A DNA stretch of 50,519 bases, taken from assembly GCA_945936135.1 (NCBI GenBank), contig CAMESG010000004.1:1-50519 (forward strand). The letters are read 5' to 3'. Made by a program: the position numbers and the translations under genes. The notes beneath the pieces were generated by a model, which worked only from the letters and a program-made list of their open reading frames with translations, was not told the DNA's origin and did no database searches. Source of the stretch: an uncultured Mollicutes bacterium. GTDB taxonomy: Bacteria > Bacillota_I > Bacilli_A > RFN20 > CAG-826. Positions 43,705-50,519 of this stretch are shown here, piece after piece (the stretch's first letter is position 1; each line of letters begins with the position of its first letter).

Positions 43705-44175
43705 ATGAAAAGTTCGAAAATGAAATTATTCCTCGGCGTCGTGGTTGCGATCTGCGCCATCGCCGCTATTTTCGGTCTCTTCGGCAACGCGTTTGCTGAT
43801 GGCAAGACCCCCGATCCCCACGGTTCGATCTTTGATTTGATGCTCCACGCGGAACAACACGGCTACAACGACATGCCTCTCTTCGGCGTCGCTTTCGGCT
43901 TCTTGATCACCGGAGGGGTCTTCGGCCTCGTCGGCGCCTTCCTTCCCCGAAAAATCGGTGGCTTGTCGCTTGGCATCGCCGCTCTCTTCCTCATCGGCGC
44001 GATCGTCATCCTCCTCAACGCGAAAGAAATCCTCGTCTCCGCGGGAACCATCAAAGATGGGCTAGAGATCATCGATGCAGAAGGTCTTGGCATTGGCGTC
44101 ATTCTCCCGACCGTCTTCGGCGGACTTGGCGCGTTGCTTGGCGCCTACGGCGCTTACGTCGGATTCAAAGCCTAA
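43705..44175 (+). CDS. Small four-helix membrane protein, unknown function
   Basis: The 156-residue product has an N-terminal helix that could be a signal or anchor (FLGVVVAICAIAAIFGLFGNAFA) and three more hydrophobic segments rich in Gly and Ala. There is a His/Asp-rich external loop (DGKTPDPHGSIFDLMLHAEQHGYND). I recognise no family. It is a single-gene unit with a promoter-embedded palindrome and a strong terminator. Confidence 0.75.
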   Translation: MKSSKMKLFLGVVVAICAIAAIFGLFGNAFADGKTPDPHGSIFDLMLHAEQHGYNDMPLFGVAFGFLITGGVFGLVGAFLPRKIGGLSLGIAALFLIGAIVILLNAKEILVSAGTIKDGLEIIDAEGLGIGVILPTVFGGLGALLGAYGAYVGFKA

Positions 44176-44270: not shown

Positions 44271-44774
44271 TTATTCGAGTTCCATAGCCGCGGCATGATC
44301 GATGATATACTGCGGAACATCTTCGAAAGGGATATCCAAGCTATAGGACAATTCCCCATAAATAATAGGTATCGCGCGTGCGACGAAGAGGGCATCCATG
44401 CTGTTGAGATGGCCATCCTTGGCTTTGCGCTGGAAGGCACCTTCAAGCAACGGGGCGAGTTCTTGGATCAAACCACGTTTCAAAGAAAGGTCATAGGCGT
44501 TCTTGCGCTTCTTTGAATCCTTCAAATACAGATCCTTGGAAGTGTCTGGCCATTCTTTGACGATTTGCAACGCTTCTTTCTTCGTCAAAGGAATCATCAA
44601 AGAAATCGGGTTCGCCAAAGGAACGCGAACGATGTTTCCCTTATCGTCTCCATATAAAGGCTTCAATACATAATAAAGAAAAGACGCATCCGATCCGCTT
44701 AATGGGGCAATGTCATCAACGTAGCAGACCCCACAATGACTGTGAAAGACGTGTTGGCCGATTTTGTATTCCAT
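44271..44774 (-). CDS. CarD-family transcription regulator
   Basis: The 167-residue protein has an N-terminal RNA-polymerase-interacting Tudor-like domain (YKIGQHVFHSHCGVCYVDDIAPL) and a helical C-terminal DNA-binding domain, the layout of CarD/CdnL. Members bind RNA polymerase beta and stabilise open complexes. The Shine-Dalgarno is AAAGGAGG. It has two tandem -10-like boxes upstream. Confidence 0.88.
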   Translation of the reverse strand: MEYKIGQHVFHSHCGVCYVDDIAPLSGSDASFLYYVLKPLYGDDKGNIVRVPLANPISLMIPLTKKEALQIVKEWPDTSKDLYLKDSKKRKNAYDLSLKRGLIQELAPLLEGAFQRKAKDGHLNSMDALFVARAIPIIYGELSYSLDIPFEDVPQYIIDHAAAMELE

Positions 44775-44821
44775 GCGCTTCGTTGCCTCCTTTTCTTCGT
44801 GTATGGCCCTTAACCTTCCCT

Positions 44822-44867
44822 ATTATAAGGGAAACTTCGAAAAAATTATAAGGGAAACCTCGAAAAA
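44822..44867. repeat. Two tandem 23-base repeats with duplicated -10 boxes upstream of carD
   Basis: Copies at 44822-44844 and 44845-44867 differ at one base. On the minus strand each contains CCCTTATAAT, so two perfect TATAAT boxes (44822-44827 and 44845-44850) lie 23 bases apart, about two helical turns. This could be a duplicated promoter or a pair of binding sites on the same face. Confidence 0.75.
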
Positions 44868-44885
44868 ATGTAAGCCTTTGACTGT

Positions 44886-44903
44886 CTCACATATGAATGT
44901 GAG
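44886..44903. promoter_or_regulatory. Inverted repeat in the carD-surface module spacer
   Basis: CTCACAT and ATGTGAG form perfect seven-base arms around ATGA. It lies between carD and the surface module in a spacer of 428 bases, AT-rich from 44960 to 45120. No gene is seen in the spacer. No clear -10 was found for the gene at 45203; a TTGACA is at about 45152. Confidence 0.45.
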
Positions 44904-45202
44904 TCATGCAAATGGAGAGGGCGGCCAGCCTTCAAATCAAGCGATTTTTGACGTGAGGCCCACCTTGATATGATAAACAATTTTGCATTTTTTGTTCAAA
45001 ATTGTAACAAACGAAAATTCTCTTGCTTTGAGAAAAATAGAAAAATAGTATCGATAGCGCCGAGTATATTTCCAATTCTCCCAACAAGAGAATCCATTTC
45101 TTTACATGCGAGCGCGTAAAAAAGGTTCGTAGAGTGACTTTGACATCGCTCTTCCTAGAATGACAGTTGTCCAAAAGGGCAGAAAAGGAGAAACCGCAAT
45201 CG

Positions 45203-46159
45203 ATGAACTTCTTAACAAAAAGTTTCGAAATCCCAACGTTGTTCTTTCTCGCCCTCGCTTCTGGCTCCACCGCAGGCTTCATCGTCCACGATTCGTTAAG
45301 AGGAACGCTCTTCACCGTCGAGGGAGACGCTTCGGCCTTCGCCATGGATAACAAAGCCGCTTACGAGAACTACGAAAAGGCCAAGAAAGCCGGCAAGGAT
45401 CTTGCAACGGCATTGACGCCAAGCGAATTGATCTCCGTCGCCTATACCAAACTTGCCCAACACGAATACATCTATAGCGAAGCGCTTGGGAGTTCGAAAG
45501 CCATGGGCTTGGTTGATCAAACGATCCAATCACGTGCCATCAGGGACAAGGACGACTACTTTGAGGAATCGAATTCCTTCTCCAACTTCGTAAAAATCTA
45601 CAATCGCATGTATCAAACCGGCGATGAAACCACAAAATATTGGGGCAGTTCACCTTCCTATCAAGGATATACACCGGTAAAAGTAACCAACGAGACGTAC
45701 GCCGAGGAGATGGGGCGAACCATCAGCGAATCCTTGATCTATCTCGTTTCTCCCAAAACCGAAGGAGACACCGATCGCTCGGGTTTGGGTCTTACAAAGG
45801 TCACCAAGACTGGATCGAATCTTCAAATCGACTTCGAAGCGAATCCCGCGAAATCGACGCTTCGCTACGTAAAGCAGATGAAGACGATCTCGAACTTGAA
45901 GGAATACCCATCCTTCTATTACGTCCATCTGCAAGTCGTTTGCACCCAAGATCTCGATCTGCTGTACATGAAATCCTTCGAGAAATACCAAGCGACCCTT
46001 GCAAGCGGAATCGGATCCGCCTGCGAAGGCACAATGACGACGATCTATCAAATCCCAAGCAATCCACCCGTCCTTCCTAAGCCCGATGCACCAAGCGAAG
46101 CCTACGCGTCCTCGCAAGACGATCTGCTCAAGAAATACGGATACGACAACATTCAGTAA
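45203..46159 (+). CDS. Membrane-anchored extracytoplasmic protein, partner of the giant repeat protein
   Basis: The product has 318 residues from the ATG backed by AAAAGGAGAAA; the frame upstream to 45167 lacks a ribosome site. One hydrophobic segment near residues 10-30 (PTLFFLALASGSTAGFIV) has no cleavable pattern, so it is probably an anchor with the rest outside. The external part is mixed alpha/beta with no family I know, and ends in a Pro-rich linker (PSNPPVLPKPDAPSEA) and a short acidic tail. The giant gene follows after 15 bases, so both are made together. Confidence 0.8.
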   Translation: MNFLTKSFEIPTLFFLALASGSTAGFIVHDSLRGTLFTVEGDASAFAMDNKAAYENYEKAKKAGKDLATALTPSELISVAYTKLAQHEYIYSEALGSSKAMGLVDQTIQSRAIRDKDDYFEESNSFSNFVKIYNRMYQTGDETTKYWGSSPSYQGYTPVKVTNETYAEEMGRTISESLIYLVSPKTEGDTDRSGLGLTKVTKTGSNLQIDFEANPAKSTLRYVKQMKTISNLKEYPSFYYVHLQVVCTQDLDLLYMKSFEKYQATLASGIGSACEGTMTTIYQIPSNPPVLPKPDAPSEAYASSQDDLLKKYGYDNIQ

Positions 46160-46174
46160 CAAAGGAGTCATTCT

Positions 46175-49100
46175 ATGAAAACCAACCAGAAAAAACGAAA
46201 CGAAAAAGAAACGTCGCGGAAGCATGCACTGCTTCTTCTTACGGCTTTCTTTGGGACCTTCGGCGTTTCGGCCGGCACGGTCTTCTTCATGCTTCCGCAA
46301 CGTACGATCACCGATTTGCTCACGACCTCCGACGATCCGAACATCGACCCTCCAACCCCTTCGCAAGCCTTCATCAACAAGCTTCTTGAAAGCGCAAAGA
46401 GCGGTCTCACTTTGGACGTCAATCACTTGGATTTCAATATCCCGGGGGCCGTTAAAAACGTCGAAGGAACCGAAGTCACCACGGAAAACCGCATCACGAA
46501 TATCGAAGGAAAAAACCCGCAAATCGCCCTTAGTTTGGAAGAACTTTCCTTGCAAGGCATCAATCTCCGCGCCGAACTTCCGCTCGCCTACAATGGCTTG
46601 AAGCGCGAAGTAGACCTTGGTTTGATGGGCAACGGCGAGGTTGACAAGAACCTCTACATCGGCATCTCCGACATTGATGGAGACGCCAAGGATTGGACCG
46701 CGGGGTATCAAGTTGACGTTAAGCGTTATACCTCGGACATCATCGACGAAGAAACCGGCGGCAAAATCGGTTATGAATATGGTCGTCTTTCCTTCATCTT
46801 GGAAGACATCCTCGAAATCTTGTCGAAGGGCGGTATCAACCTCAATACCTACGGCAAGATCGGCGGGGCGATCACGGGATCAAACGGCAGCGGCGCTTCT
46901 TCCGATGCCTCTTCCTCCTCTTCCATCAATACTCAAGACCTTCTTGACGCGTTAAACAACATTCAAGAAAGCGTCTATGAAGGCAACACCTACTTCACCT
47001 TGAATTTGCCTTTGGGCGGCATTGAATTTTCCATCGGCATGGGCGCGGATAAGGACTTCAATCTTTCATCCGTCGACATCCCATCCAAATTAAGCACCGA
47101 AACCACCCAAAAGCTCTCCGCGACAAACGACATGACGCTCGCTTTGAACGCAGATGTTTATACGGTCGCTAGCGGCGAGTCCTACGACTGGGTCGTTCCC
47201 GAAGCCTGGAAGTCCTACAAGAAACTCGATGACTCTCTAGCGCTCTTTGAACGCGTTGCCAATCTCGTCGTCGATCCTAAATTTGGTTTGCAACTTGATG
47301 TCGAAATGATTCATTCTAAGAGCGGAAAAGAAGGCACCTTCACGACTTTCTCTCGAAAGCCGATGGAGCAAGCCGCCCGCCTTTCTTTGAATGGCGATGT
47401 CGACCTTTCCCTCAATACGTTGGATGGCGCGATCACGGGCGTGAACTTCAACTCCGCCGCTGCAGATTTGGCCTTCACCCAGCTTCAAAAAGATGAAAAT
47501 GGCAAGTGGGTCGATAGCACGGCCAAGCAGATGCTTTCCGCCTACATCGATAATACCGATTCGAGCAACGCTGCCGCCTACATCAATGTCGCGGATACCT
47601 TGAAAGTCCGCACCACCAAGTCCGTTTTGGACGAAGTCATCGGCAAATTCCGCTCCGAAACCGTCCCAAGCGATCCGGTTGAAGGCGCTCAAGAAGAAAA
47701 GACCAACATCCAAATCGACAAAGTCGTTGACACCTTGACCCAAGTCATTGGCATCCTCCAAGGGCAAGACAACTTCGAAACCCCTGCGCTTCTTGCCGGC
47801 TTGAAAGAAAAGCATTACGAAGTAATCGTTGATATGATCGACAAGGTCGAAATCGACGACAACAAGATCCAAATCGATCTTTCCCTCGCCGGTCTTGGCT
47901 TCAACGATGCGATGATCTCCGTGATCCTCAATGGTTCCGCTGATCATAGCCTTGCCTCGATCGAAATCACTTCCTTGAAACTCAATACGTTGGAATTGAA
48001 CCTCGCTTTGAAGACCACCGGCCATACCGCCAAGACCCCGGAAGAAATGGAAACCATGAACGAATGGGCTTTCATGAACAAACTCCCGACCTTGATGGAC
48101 CCGATCGCCGAGATCGCGAAGAACAAACAAATCTCCCTCGGCTTGCAAGGAACCGTTTCCGACCGTGGCACGATGGACGTCTATCAAGACGTCGCCAAAA
48201 CCGCCGGCATGGACATCAACGGAAGCATCAATCTCGACTTCTCCAAAGAAAAGGCCGAAGGCGCTACGAATCCGGCCCTCCTTGATGGTGCCATCGATTT
48301 GACCCTCACCGAGAAGAACGCTTCTTACTACCAAGATCACAACATCAAATTGGACGTTGCAAATAGCGCAGAAGATCTGACTTCCACGCAAAACGCGGTT
48401 TATTTGCACTATGATTCGAGCAATCCCGCCAATAGCGCAGACGTTGAAAACCGTACCAATCCCACCAATAAGGATGGCGTCAACGGCAAGTTCTACATTA
48501 CTGATGCCGCCGATATCCTTGAAGGCCTTATCAACACCATCACGGGTGCCGATGATCGTTTTGGACGCATCTCGCGCTTGATGGCTGCTCCTGCCGAAGC
48601 GACCTTCTTAAGCGAACTCACCTCGGGCAACTACGTCTCCGCGATTGCCAATTACAGCATCCTCAAAGAAGCCACAATCGGCGAACACCGCGACGTCATC
48701 GTCCTCAATGGTTCTGCTCTTGGCATGGATTCGGATTTGACCCTTGCCCTCAACTTCTCTTCGGATGCGTCGACCTTTGATAACATCGAGATCGGCCTCT
48801 CCACCGGCAAAGACGAAGCAACCGCTACGGATATTTCCTTCAAGCTTTCCTTCGACAAGGTTACCGCCGATACCTCCTTCTCCTGCTTGGACCACGAAGC
48901 TTCCTACGATGATTTCTCGGGCATCTTAAGCCTTGCTGATTACGCTGTTTCGACTGCCCTCCTTGGCTTAGAAAACGGCGAAGGTGTCTCGACTTACGAT
49001 ATTGAAGGCATCGCGAAAATCGCTCTTGGCAACTACGAAGCCGAATTGGCGCGTGCTTCCATGCAAGCTAGCGTTGAAGGCGCGAGAATCAAGCTCCATG

Positions 49101-49900
49101 GCGAACTCAATGATATCCCCGTCATCCGCGGCATCAACGCGCCGGATGATGAACGCTACTTCCGTCCGTTGGAAATCGGTGGCAACCGCGATGCCTCCTT
49201 CTACTACTATTCGGATGGTTTAGAGAATGAGGATGGCGAATTGACCACCGAGTTGCTCATGACCCGCCATAGCGATTACGGTCGCCTTATGGACGTCAAT
49301 GATTCCGTGAAGCTCAACAAAGAAGGCGCCTTCAAGGACGATGCCTTGAGCTACCTCCTCCAATACTTCCTCGGCGTGGATGAATCGCTCTTCGCAGACA
49401 ATGGCAACGAAACCGTCGCTGAACCTTCTACGGACGCGAAAGCCTTCCACGTTGAAGATCTCTACCGCGGCTTCACCAAGACGGTTGATGGCGATGACGT
49501 CAGCTTCGAAATCCGCGTAAATCTCAATTCCTTGATCGGCGTTTCGATTCTCAATGACATCGTTCTACGTATCGATGGCGGTACCTTCGGCGGCTTCAAA
49601 GCGCTCAATGGCATCCACGTTGATACCGGCGTTTCCCTCTTCGGAAGCGAAGGCGGACGCATCAAACTCGTGGGTGTTTCCTTAGATCTTTATTTGAACA
49701 ACCTAAGAGATGGCGAATACCTCAATGGTTGGGAGAAAGGCGAAGAAGCCTTCGAGGCGAACTTCCTCCACTTCGAAAACGATGGAAGTTACAAGGAAGT
49801 CGGCGTCTATGACGATGCCAGCCGCACCAAAGCCTGGCATCATGGCGTTGATCCAGAGAACGCGGGACACCGTAACTACTACCTTGGCTTAAGCCATTAA
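46175..49900 (+). CDS. Giant N-terminally anchored surface protein with four internal repeats
   Basis: The 1241-residue product has a basic N-terminus, one membrane segment at about 18-40 and then only extracytoplasmic sequence, with no LPxTG or C-terminal helix. It is rich in alternating hydrophobic strands. Four divergent repeats can be aligned by eye: unit openings at about residues 128 (GINLRAELPL), 403 (LSLNGDVDLSL), 679 (MDINGSINLDF) and 962 (ASMQASVEGAR), spaced 275, 276 and 283. Each continues with a G-K/R-hydrophobic-D-x-hydrophobic helix (206, 467, 771, about 1020-1065) and a LxLNxxLG strand block (277, 570, 845, 1116). A Ser-rich linker sits near 236-250. AAAGGAG precedes ATG. The strand-rich repeats could be a lipid-binding groove or adhesin; neither is shown. 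Confidence 0.85.
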   Translation: MKTNQKKRNEKETSRKHALLLLTAFFGTFGVSAGTVFFMLPQRTITDLLTTSDDPNIDPPTPSQAFINKLLESAKSGLTLDVNHLDFNIPGAVKNVEGTEVTTENRITNIEGKNPQIALSLEELSLQGINLRAELPLAYNGLKREVDLGLMGNGEVDKNLYIGISDIDGDAKDWTAGYQVDVKRYTSDIIDEETGGKIGYEYGRLSFILEDILEILSKGGINLNTYGKIGGAITGSNGSGASSDASSSSSINTQDLLDALNNIQESVYEGNTYFTLNLPLGGIEFSIGMGADKDFNLSSVDIPSKLSTETTQKLSATNDMTLALNADVYTVASGESYDWVVPEAWKSYKKLDDSLALFERVANLVVDPKFGLQLDVEMIHSKSGKEGTFTTFSRKPMEQAARLSLNGDVDLSLNTLDGAITGVNFNSAAADLAFTQLQKDENGKWVDSTAKQMLSAYIDNTDSSNAAAYINVADTLKVRTTKSVLDEVIGKFRSETVPSDPVEGAQEEKTNIQIDKVVDTLTQVIGILQGQDNFETPALLAGLKEKHYEVIVDMIDKVEIDDNKIQIDLSLAGLGFNDAMISVILNGSADHSLASIEITSLKLNTLELNLALKTTGHTAKTPEEMETMNEWAFMNKLPTLMDPIAEIAKNKQISLGLQGTVSDRGTMDVYQDVAKTAGMDINGSINLDFSKEKAEGATNPALLDGAIDLTLTEKNASYYQDHNIKLDVANSAEDLTSTQNAVYLHYDSSNPANSADVENRTNPTNKDGVNGKFYITDAADILEGLINTITGADDRFGRISRLMAAPAEATFLSELTSGNYVSAIANYSILKEATIGEHRDVIVLNGSALGMDSDLTLALNFSSDASTFDNIEIGLSTGKDEATATDISFKLSFDKVTADTSFSCLDHEASYDDFSGILSLADYAVSTALLGLENGEGVSTYDIEGIAKIALGNYEAELARASMQASVEGARIKLHGELNDIPVIRGINAPDDERYFRPLEIGGNRDASFYYYSDGLENEDGELTTELLMTRHSDYGRLMDVNDSVKLNKEGAFKDDALSYLLQYFLGVDESLFADNGNETVAEPSTDAKAFHVEDLYRGFTKTVDGDDVSFEIRVNLNSLIGVSILNDIVLRIDGGTFGGFKALNGIHVDTGVSLFGSEGGRIKLVGVSLDLYLNNLRDGEYLNGWEKGEEAFEANFLHFENDGSYKEVGVYDDASRTKAWHHGVDPENAGHRNYYLGLSH

Positions 49901-49914
49901 TCCAACGCTTCTAT

Positions 49915-49944
49915 GGGTCCGGATTTATCCGGGCCCTTTCTTTT
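49915..49944 (+). terminator. Terminator of the surface module
   Basis: GGGTCCGGA pairs with TCCGGGCCC (nine pairs, one G-U) around TTTA, followed by TTTCTTTT. Confidence 0.9.
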
Positions 49945-49985: not shown

Positions 49986-50519
49986 ATGGAAAACATCTCA
50001 GCCATCGTTGGAGCCAATCTATCTGCCCTTCGCAAAGCCAAGGGGCTCACCCAGCAAGAGCTTGCCAGCGAAATCCATTACAGCGACAAATCCATCTCCA
50101 AATGGGAGCTTGGCTATTCCTGCCCAAGCGTCGACGTTTTGATGGATTTCGGCGCGTATTTTGGAGTTTCTCTTGAATACCTCGTCTCCACCCACGAAGA
50201 AGGCGAAGCCGCGGATGCCATCGCTCCGATCGAAGAGACGAAAAATAGCCCGTTGATGACAAATAAATTCGTCATTCTTGGCCTCACTATGGCTGTTGTT
50301 ATCCTCGCGGATCTATCTTTGTTCTTCACCCAATACCTCTTCACGGGCAAAGAGATTCCACTCGAAGCCTGGTCCATCTTCCCTTGGGTTGTCCCGATCT
50401 GCTCGATCCTCGCGGCCTTGGAGGTCAAATTCTTCTTCCGCGACCGGTTCTGGATCACCATTCTCCTTTCCGTTTCCGTGTGGAGCCTATTGCTTTGTCT
50501 CTGCCTCCATCAAGCCGTT
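49986..50519 (+). CDS. XRE-family regulator with C-terminal membrane helices (cut by window end)
   Basis: The open frame gives 178 residues and continues past the window. Residues 6-62 form an HTH_3 domain (LRKAKGLTQQELASEIHYSDKSISKWELG). After an acidic linker, three hydrophobic segments follow (LGLTMAVVILADLSLFF, WVVPICSILAALEV, WITILLSVSVWSLLLCLCL). DNA-binding proteins tied to the membrane in this way are common in Firmicutes and often respond to envelope signals. It could regulate the surface module just upstream, but that is inference. Confidence 0.88.
   Translation, partial: MENISAIVGANLSALRKAKGLTQQELASEIHYSDKSISKWELGYSCPSVDVLMDFGAYFGVSLEYLVSTHEEGEAADAIAPIEETKNSPLMTNKFVILGLTMAVVILADLSLFFTQYLFTGKEIPLEAWSIFPWVVPICSILAALEVKFFFRDRFWITILLSVSVWSLLLCLCLHQAV

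Follow-up and report, generated by a model that had tools for sequence, protein, structure and literature searches.

Adjacent genes for membrane-anchored proteins with predicted LolA/LppX-like domains: a candidate module for extracellular lipid handling in class Bacilli

The window (the whole stretch of 50,519 nucleotides that was analysed) carries close to its 3' end two adjacent genes for proteins with large predicted extracytoplasmic parts. The first, here called the companion, is encoded at 45203–46159 (+) and comprises 318 aa counted from ATG; an in-frame TTG lies upstream, at 45167. The second, giant 1, is encoded at 46175–49900 (+) and comprises 1,241 aa. Both frames are open and the genes are separated by 15 nt, in agreement with an earlier, sequence-only reading of this DNA. 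That reading had also credited both genes with good Shine-Dalgarno sequences. This is correct for giant 1, where a clear AAAGGAG occurs 7 nt ahead of the ATG, but the AAGGAG found 12 nt ahead of the companion ATG is acceptable rather than good. One N-terminal anchor had been assigned to each protein, and TM prediction identified a single hydrophobic stretch in each and no second one (45230–45286 (+) in the companion, Kyte-Doolittle 1.74; 46229–46285 (+) in giant 1). The terminator proposed for the pair was located 3' of giant 1 at 49915–49936 (+), as a terminator-like hairpin with a 9-bp stem and a T-run. Terminator-like sites as a class are not enriched (9 found vs. 7.1 expected), but none of the others has as many GC pairs. 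Following it is the membrane-linked regulator of the earlier reading, an XRE helix-turn-helix protein of 220 aa (HTH_3, E 3.9e-14) with four predicted TM segments, encoded from 49986 to the end of the window at 50519 (+) and beyond.

The spacer 5' of the companion (44775–45202) had been described as long and as containing several repeats. It contains one 23-nt direct repeat pair (44822–44867) and four weak, imperfect inverted repeats. The direct pair, which consists of two tandem copies, coincides in part with a promoter-like site of a divergent gene for a CarD-like protein, so it may serve that gene and need not belong to the companion/giant module. The spacer probably belongs to the promoter region of the CarD-like gene. 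The genes for the CarD-like protein (44271–44774, −) and for a small membrane protein (43705–44175, +) keep their upstream position in many loci of the genus. In the genome of one relative (G007), a lipoprotein-like ORF with a collagen-like N-terminal region (GPQGPQGEQ) is encoded between these two genes (L063:7020–8003, −).

A second giant gene lies past the window end. Giant 2 (G000:C4:50747–54262; L062:7748–11263) starts 228 bases beyond the window, directly after the regulator gene. A search of the organism's own genome, an assembly of 13 contigs totalling 1.23 Mb, showed that this 1,171-aa ORF is 30% identical to giant 1 over residues 73–1015 (E 8.8e-56). A lipobox-like LASC motif occurs near its N-terminus, and giant 2 is likely a lipoprotein, as judged from its sequence. 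Within the genus, a lipobox-like motif was found in the first 90 residues of 10 of 20 full-length second giants vs. 1 of 18 first giants, whereas an N-terminal hydrophobic segment is present in 17 of 18 first giants vs. 7 of 20 second giants. Two giants per locus are common in the genus; elsewhere a single giant is the usual number. Also encoded in the window's own genome, after giant 2, is a serine-rich lipoprotein-like ORF (L062:11317–11997, −).

The outer domains had been said to belong to no recognised families. For sequence this stands: neither the companion nor giant 1 has a match above the curated cut-offs of Pfam and NCBIfam. The LolA, LppX and RseB Pfam families matched none of 22 companions and none of 23 giants, NCBIfam returned 0 matches for these proteins, and the AsmA/chorein (Chorein-N) Pfam domain matched neither companion nor giants. 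Searches with PADLOC, PHROGs and PDB-sequence profiles yielded no usable family for either protein; one weak PHROG of unknown function (phrog_19841, E 3e-4) touches the companion. PADLOC matches of the regulator cover mostly its helix-turn-helix part and were set aside. For fold the statement no longer applies, since the predicted models of both proteins are of LolA/LppX type, as described below.

Used as a single query, the companion was found in 49 of 96 relatives and the giant in 28 of 96, the latter nearly all members of the window's own genus. The companion profile identified 156 of 222 genomes in a sample of the order (66/222 lack a companion at E 1e-5), 66 of 395 in a sample of the class and 56 of 392 in a draw from the phylum, in which all matches listed fall in the class. 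The giant profile identified 107 of 196 genomes of the order. In named records it found 26 loci, including those of two Candidatus Alloenteromonas species and of other gut and rumen Bacilli assemblies, and to judge by these records the window's genome falls in the Candidatus Alloenteromonas group.

The AlphaFold2 model of the companion, built with an alignment of 22 sequences, has a pLDDT of 90.7 and a pTM of 0.84. It displays the features of the LolA/LppX fold superfamily, namely a strongly curved antiparallel sheet, an N-terminal helix and a helical lid. The best solved structure in a Foldseek search is LprG (E 1.7e-5). VIA-align placed an LppX-like domain at model residues 70–292 (45410–46078, +), with LppX at Z 10.8 over 168 residues and 3.8 Å and LprG at Z 10.6; scores to lipid-bound entries are 10.2 and 10.1. 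Other matches are LprF (Z 9.5), LolA (up to Z 8.6), RseB (Z 8.3) and the LolA-fold protein SAOUHSC_02783 of Staphylococcus aureus. In its predicted structure the companion is thus a LolA/LppX clam fold with a TM anchor. A common trait of this fold, as set out in PMC6363788, is a hydrophobic pocket that accepts varied ligands.

Giant 1 had been called a repeat protein, and its internal repeats are real. Comparison of sequence profiles with hhalign resolved four units: alignment of two units against two gave E 3e-17, and unit against unit the probability was 98.9% (2–3), 92.3% (1–2) and 62% (1–4), with the remaining pairs at 7% or less. A reversed-profile control reached at most 2.9% over 12 comparisons. 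An AlphaFold2 model of residues 45–1241 (pLDDT 76.0, pTM 0.54) was searched with VIA, and the domain boundaries obtained agree with those of the independent sequence-repeat analysis. All four units have LolA-superfamily matches. Domain 1 (residues 61–354, i.e., model residues 17–310 shifted by +44; 46355–47236, +) matches LolA with Z 9.8 over 161 residues and 4.0 Å. Domain 2 (residues 362–620; 47258–48034, +) matches S. aureus SAOUHSC_02783 with Z 7.6, domain 3 (residues 636–915; 48080–48919, +) the LolA of P. gingivalis with Z 7.8, and domain 4 (residues 911–1210; 48905–49804, +) LprF with Z 8.2. Scores for units 2–4 are near the noise level of the tool, which warns of common arrangements at Z < 8 (units 2 and 3); the fold of units 2 and 3 therefore rests also on their homology to unit 1, and the sequence similarity of unit 4 to unit 1 likewise speaks for the assignment. 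Giant 1 is modelled as four tandem LolA/LppX-like domains behind a TM anchor, with a fold that is less firm than that of the companion.

Several other candidates were considered for giant 1. The companion is not supported as a fifth, sequence-related unit (hhalign ≤0.9% in one comparison and ≤0.5% in another), and the link between the two proteins is structural only. Foldseek matches of the whole model to long beta proteins (LptD, CPSF160, porins) were rejected as meaningless, with rmsd values of about 30 Å or more, in favour of the VIA matches to single units. Outer-membrane barrels in the VIA list (OmpG, CymA and autotransporters), which fall mostly on unit 3, were taken to reflect shared beta-barrel geometry. 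AsmA, TamB, VPS13 and TULIP chains were not among the VIA matches listed for giant 1, an absence that excludes nothing.

Gene order in relatives bears on whether the two proteins act together. We fetched 99 neighbourhoods and scored them with profiles of the companion, the giant and the regulator; linkage was counted over the 77 separate companions with a profile E < 1e-40. Outside this set are L195, whose companion was missed by the ORF filter, and L203–L205, with weaker E values. The ORF filter also missed the companion of L095 in the neighbourhood table of the genus, although the single-query search had found it. The giant is the next gene on the same strand in 65 of the 77 loci. The gap between the two genes ranges from −23 to 51 nt with a median of 9 bp, which suggests translational coupling. 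In the remaining 12 loci no giant directly follows the companion. Among these, a short giant-like ORF adjoins in L164 (584 aa, E 2.9e-6) and L169 (456 aa, E 2.9e-14), and a 487-aa ORF without a profile match is present in L171. In five loci (L162, L163, L191, L197 and L199) companion and regulator persist and no giant was seen beside them.

Elsewhere in the class, in families other than that of the window, companion and giant profiles match within one ORF. Eight such fused ORFs of 989–2,802 aa were identified (L128, L129, L130, L133, L134, L141, L142 and L145), in which the companion domain forms the N-terminus and giant-like sequence continues from it. Thus, homologs of the two proteins do not occur mostly apart, nor was a published function for either found in the literature searched. 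Adjacency in 65 of 77 loci, together with the fusions, supports the earlier view of the pair as a dedicated two-gene extracytoplasmic surface system.

Further long ORFs of this type (2,099–2,840 aa) occur in L207–L213, at sites identified through the companion domain alone. Self-comparison indicated a repeat period of about 170–190 residues in two groups of fused proteins, from which arithmetic gives about eleven units in the longest. In several genomes of one family, the gene 5' of the fused gene is one that we take to encode acetate kinase. At this site the L135 gene encodes just a repeat-free companion of 311 aa, the L133 protein has 1,361 aa and those of L129 and L130 exceed 2,400 aa. These differing lengths imply that the N-terminal domain is retained and the repeat part lengthens and shortens. 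The long fused genes of L128 and L134 have neighbours unlike those at the acetate-kinase site of L129, L130 and L133, and point to at least two chromosomal sites in the family. Repeat number that differs between lineages is a feature of many adhesins, and the giants may be structural surface repeat proteins or adhesins for which the LolA-like fold is only a stable module. We consider this very unlikely, given that the LppX-like domain stays in front at any repeat number and that no known adhesin family was found for companion or giant in Pfam or NCBIfam.

The regulator is encoded within four ORFs of the companion in 60 of the 77 loci, most often immediately upstream and in divergent orientation. 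In the window's own genus it is mostly found between or after two giants, and in the window's own genome it is single copy, with no paralogue at E 1e-5. LolA folds also act as protein regulators (RseB, GerS), which counts against a lipid-carrier reading. It is conceivable that the LolA-fold domain of the companion binds a protein, namely the XRE regulator with its four TM segments or an enzyme of the cell wall, and relays the state of the envelope, with the giant as a scaffold or ligand trap. The RseB match to the companion, the frequent proximity of a single-copy regulator and its persistence in the five loci where no giant was seen are consistent with such a sensor, as are the Gram-positive precedents described for SsdC (PMC7769602) and GerS (PMC8496864). 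A sensor would not require four or more tandem units, however, and no counterpart of the regulator was identified among the fetched neighbours of any of the eight fused ORFs. The fused forms indicate that the regulator lies outside the core of the module. Thus, a sensor or protein regulator is ranked second, as an unlikely explanation.

If the module captures lipids, its hosts should need lipid from outside, and we therefore examined genes for ketoacyl synthase and FakB. Ketoacyl synthase (FabF/B, PF00109) is absent from 95 of 96 relatives, the window's own genome included, and present in 10 of 14 control genomes. DegV/FakB-type proteins are encoded in 95 of 96 relatives, again including the window's own genome, where PlsY is also present. 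On these two markers, this genome fits the profile of a fatty-acid auxotroph (PF00109 absent, DegV present). G044, the only relative that encodes a ketoacyl synthase, lacks the companion. In the class sample, PF00109 was found in 5 of 66 companion-positive vs. 113 of 329 companion-negative genomes (Fisher p 3e-6, a value that ignores phylogeny). Both PF00109 and the companion are lacking in 216 of the 395 genomes, and the loss of fatty-acid synthesis is thus wider than the module. Of the five companion-positive genomes with PF00109, one (G384) has a standard 424-aa frame and four have an odd double protein of about 800 aa. These four (G300, G413, G499 and G554, one genus of family f27) encode frames of about 800–817 aa, in each of which ketoacyl synthase is matched twice; a double synthase of this kind is unusual. 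As a gene-content test of lipid scavenging, these data are supportive but confounded by phylogeny. In RF39, an uncultured gut order of the same class, fatty-acid biosynthesis has been lost and incorporation of exogenous fatty acids was suggested (Nayfach et al., 2019, PMC6784871). Extracellular lipid gathering and the companion/giant module are not addressed in that study, so far as the parts consulted cover it.

The explanation that we favour is that the companion and the giant or giants form one membrane-anchored extracytoplasmic array that binds lipids and passes them on; we consider this somewhat probable as a whole. The array architecture of LolA/LppX-fold domains is very probable. It would comprise one such domain in the companion, four in giant 1 and probably four more in giant 2, with the companion nearest the membrane and the giants reaching outward. 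Gene order, fusion, repeats and the companion fold are computed results, as is, less firmly, the fold of the giant's units. We infer that the concave pocket of each domain may accommodate a lipid or acyl chain, and on balance lipid binding by these domains seems slightly favoured. Ligands could then be handed from domain to domain, between the outside and the membrane. Transfer may run chiefly towards the cell, providing exogenous fatty acids or other lipids where type II fatty-acid synthesis is missing, although uptake as the main role is put forward only tentatively. The four-TM XRE regulator probably tunes expression of the module to the state of the membrane or its lipids.

Traffic in the other direction has also been weighed. 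The nearest folds are those of the mycobacterial carriers LppX, LprG and LprF, and a long tandem array would suit the spanning of a cell wall. The array could be an outward carrier that moves a lipid-linked product or lipoglycan across the wall from membrane to cell surface, in the manner of mycobacterial LprG and LppX. Members of the class Bacilli are established monoderms, and we know of no receiving membrane in this class, which counts against the proposal. So does the finding that, outside the window's own genus, no neighbour but the regulator is recurrent (as judged by eye). We view outward transport as distinctly unlikely, and place it, like the structural role, below the sensor.

For the lipid-binding array, the implications extend beyond this genome. 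The module is a conserved sequence-orphan candidate for extracellular lipid gathering, with a predicted fold that is tied to lipid carriage. If this is true, a direct target would be the question of which lipid sits in the domains and whether supplying it aids culture. More speculatively, and we regard this as doubtful, these proteins may represent a new class of extracytoplasmic lipid conduit in monoderm bacteria, made of about 5 to 12 tandem anchored LolA-like carriers and of lineage-dependent length. It would gather lipids from the surroundings of cells that do not synthesise fatty acids, or serve an outer lipid layer that has escaped recognition. Such a conduit would be a bucket-brigade counterpart, with a different fold, of bridge-like lipid transfer proteins.

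Among known systems, the mycobacterial proteins LppX, LprG and LprF are most like the companion, in that they share its fold (Z 9.5–10.8) and are anchored outside the cytoplasmic membrane. They are single-domain lipoproteins. The companion differs from them in its TM anchor, in having no Pfam sequence match and in its giant repeat partner. LolA resembles units 1 (Z 9.8) and 3 (Z 7.8) of giant 1 in fold. It is soluble, has a single domain and shuttles through the periplasm from one membrane to the other, whereas the units of the giant are in tandem, anchored and encoded in class Bacilli.

RseB/MucB and SsdC (YdcC) of Bacillus subtilis place a LolA-type domain outside the membrane, as the companion does. 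They have no tandem array; RseB is partnered by an anti-sigma factor and SsdC by the spore envelope. The companion is single-domain and lacks the second C-terminal domain by which RseB/MucB are recognised, and its linked regulator is of XRE type, not an anti-sigma factor. SsdC is a TM-anchored example from a monoderm, described as shaping the spores of B. subtilis (PMC7769602). Clostridioides difficile GerS is a Gram-positive lipoprotein with a LolA-family fold, reported as a domain-swapped dimer that activates the amidase CwlD (PMC8496864); unlike the giant, it has no repeats.

A tandem anchored array of LolA domains was not found described in the literature searched. For length and anchoring, the bridge-like lipid transfer proteins offer a comparison: AsmA/TamB and VPS13, proteins with a repeating beta-groove, are presented as anchored proteins with repeat number setting their length and with a proposed role in lipid handling (PMC7613979, PMC6791001). 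This is a working analogy only, as theirs is a continuous groove and separate half-barrel domains are predicted here; the pTM of 0.54 for giant 1 leaves the arrangement of its units, and hence the comparison with a continuous groove, loose. What is known, therefore, is the LolA/LppX fold. What appears new is its predicted use in a tandem anchored array without a Pfam or NCBIfam family, and LolA-type domains, it would appear, can form long tandem arrays.
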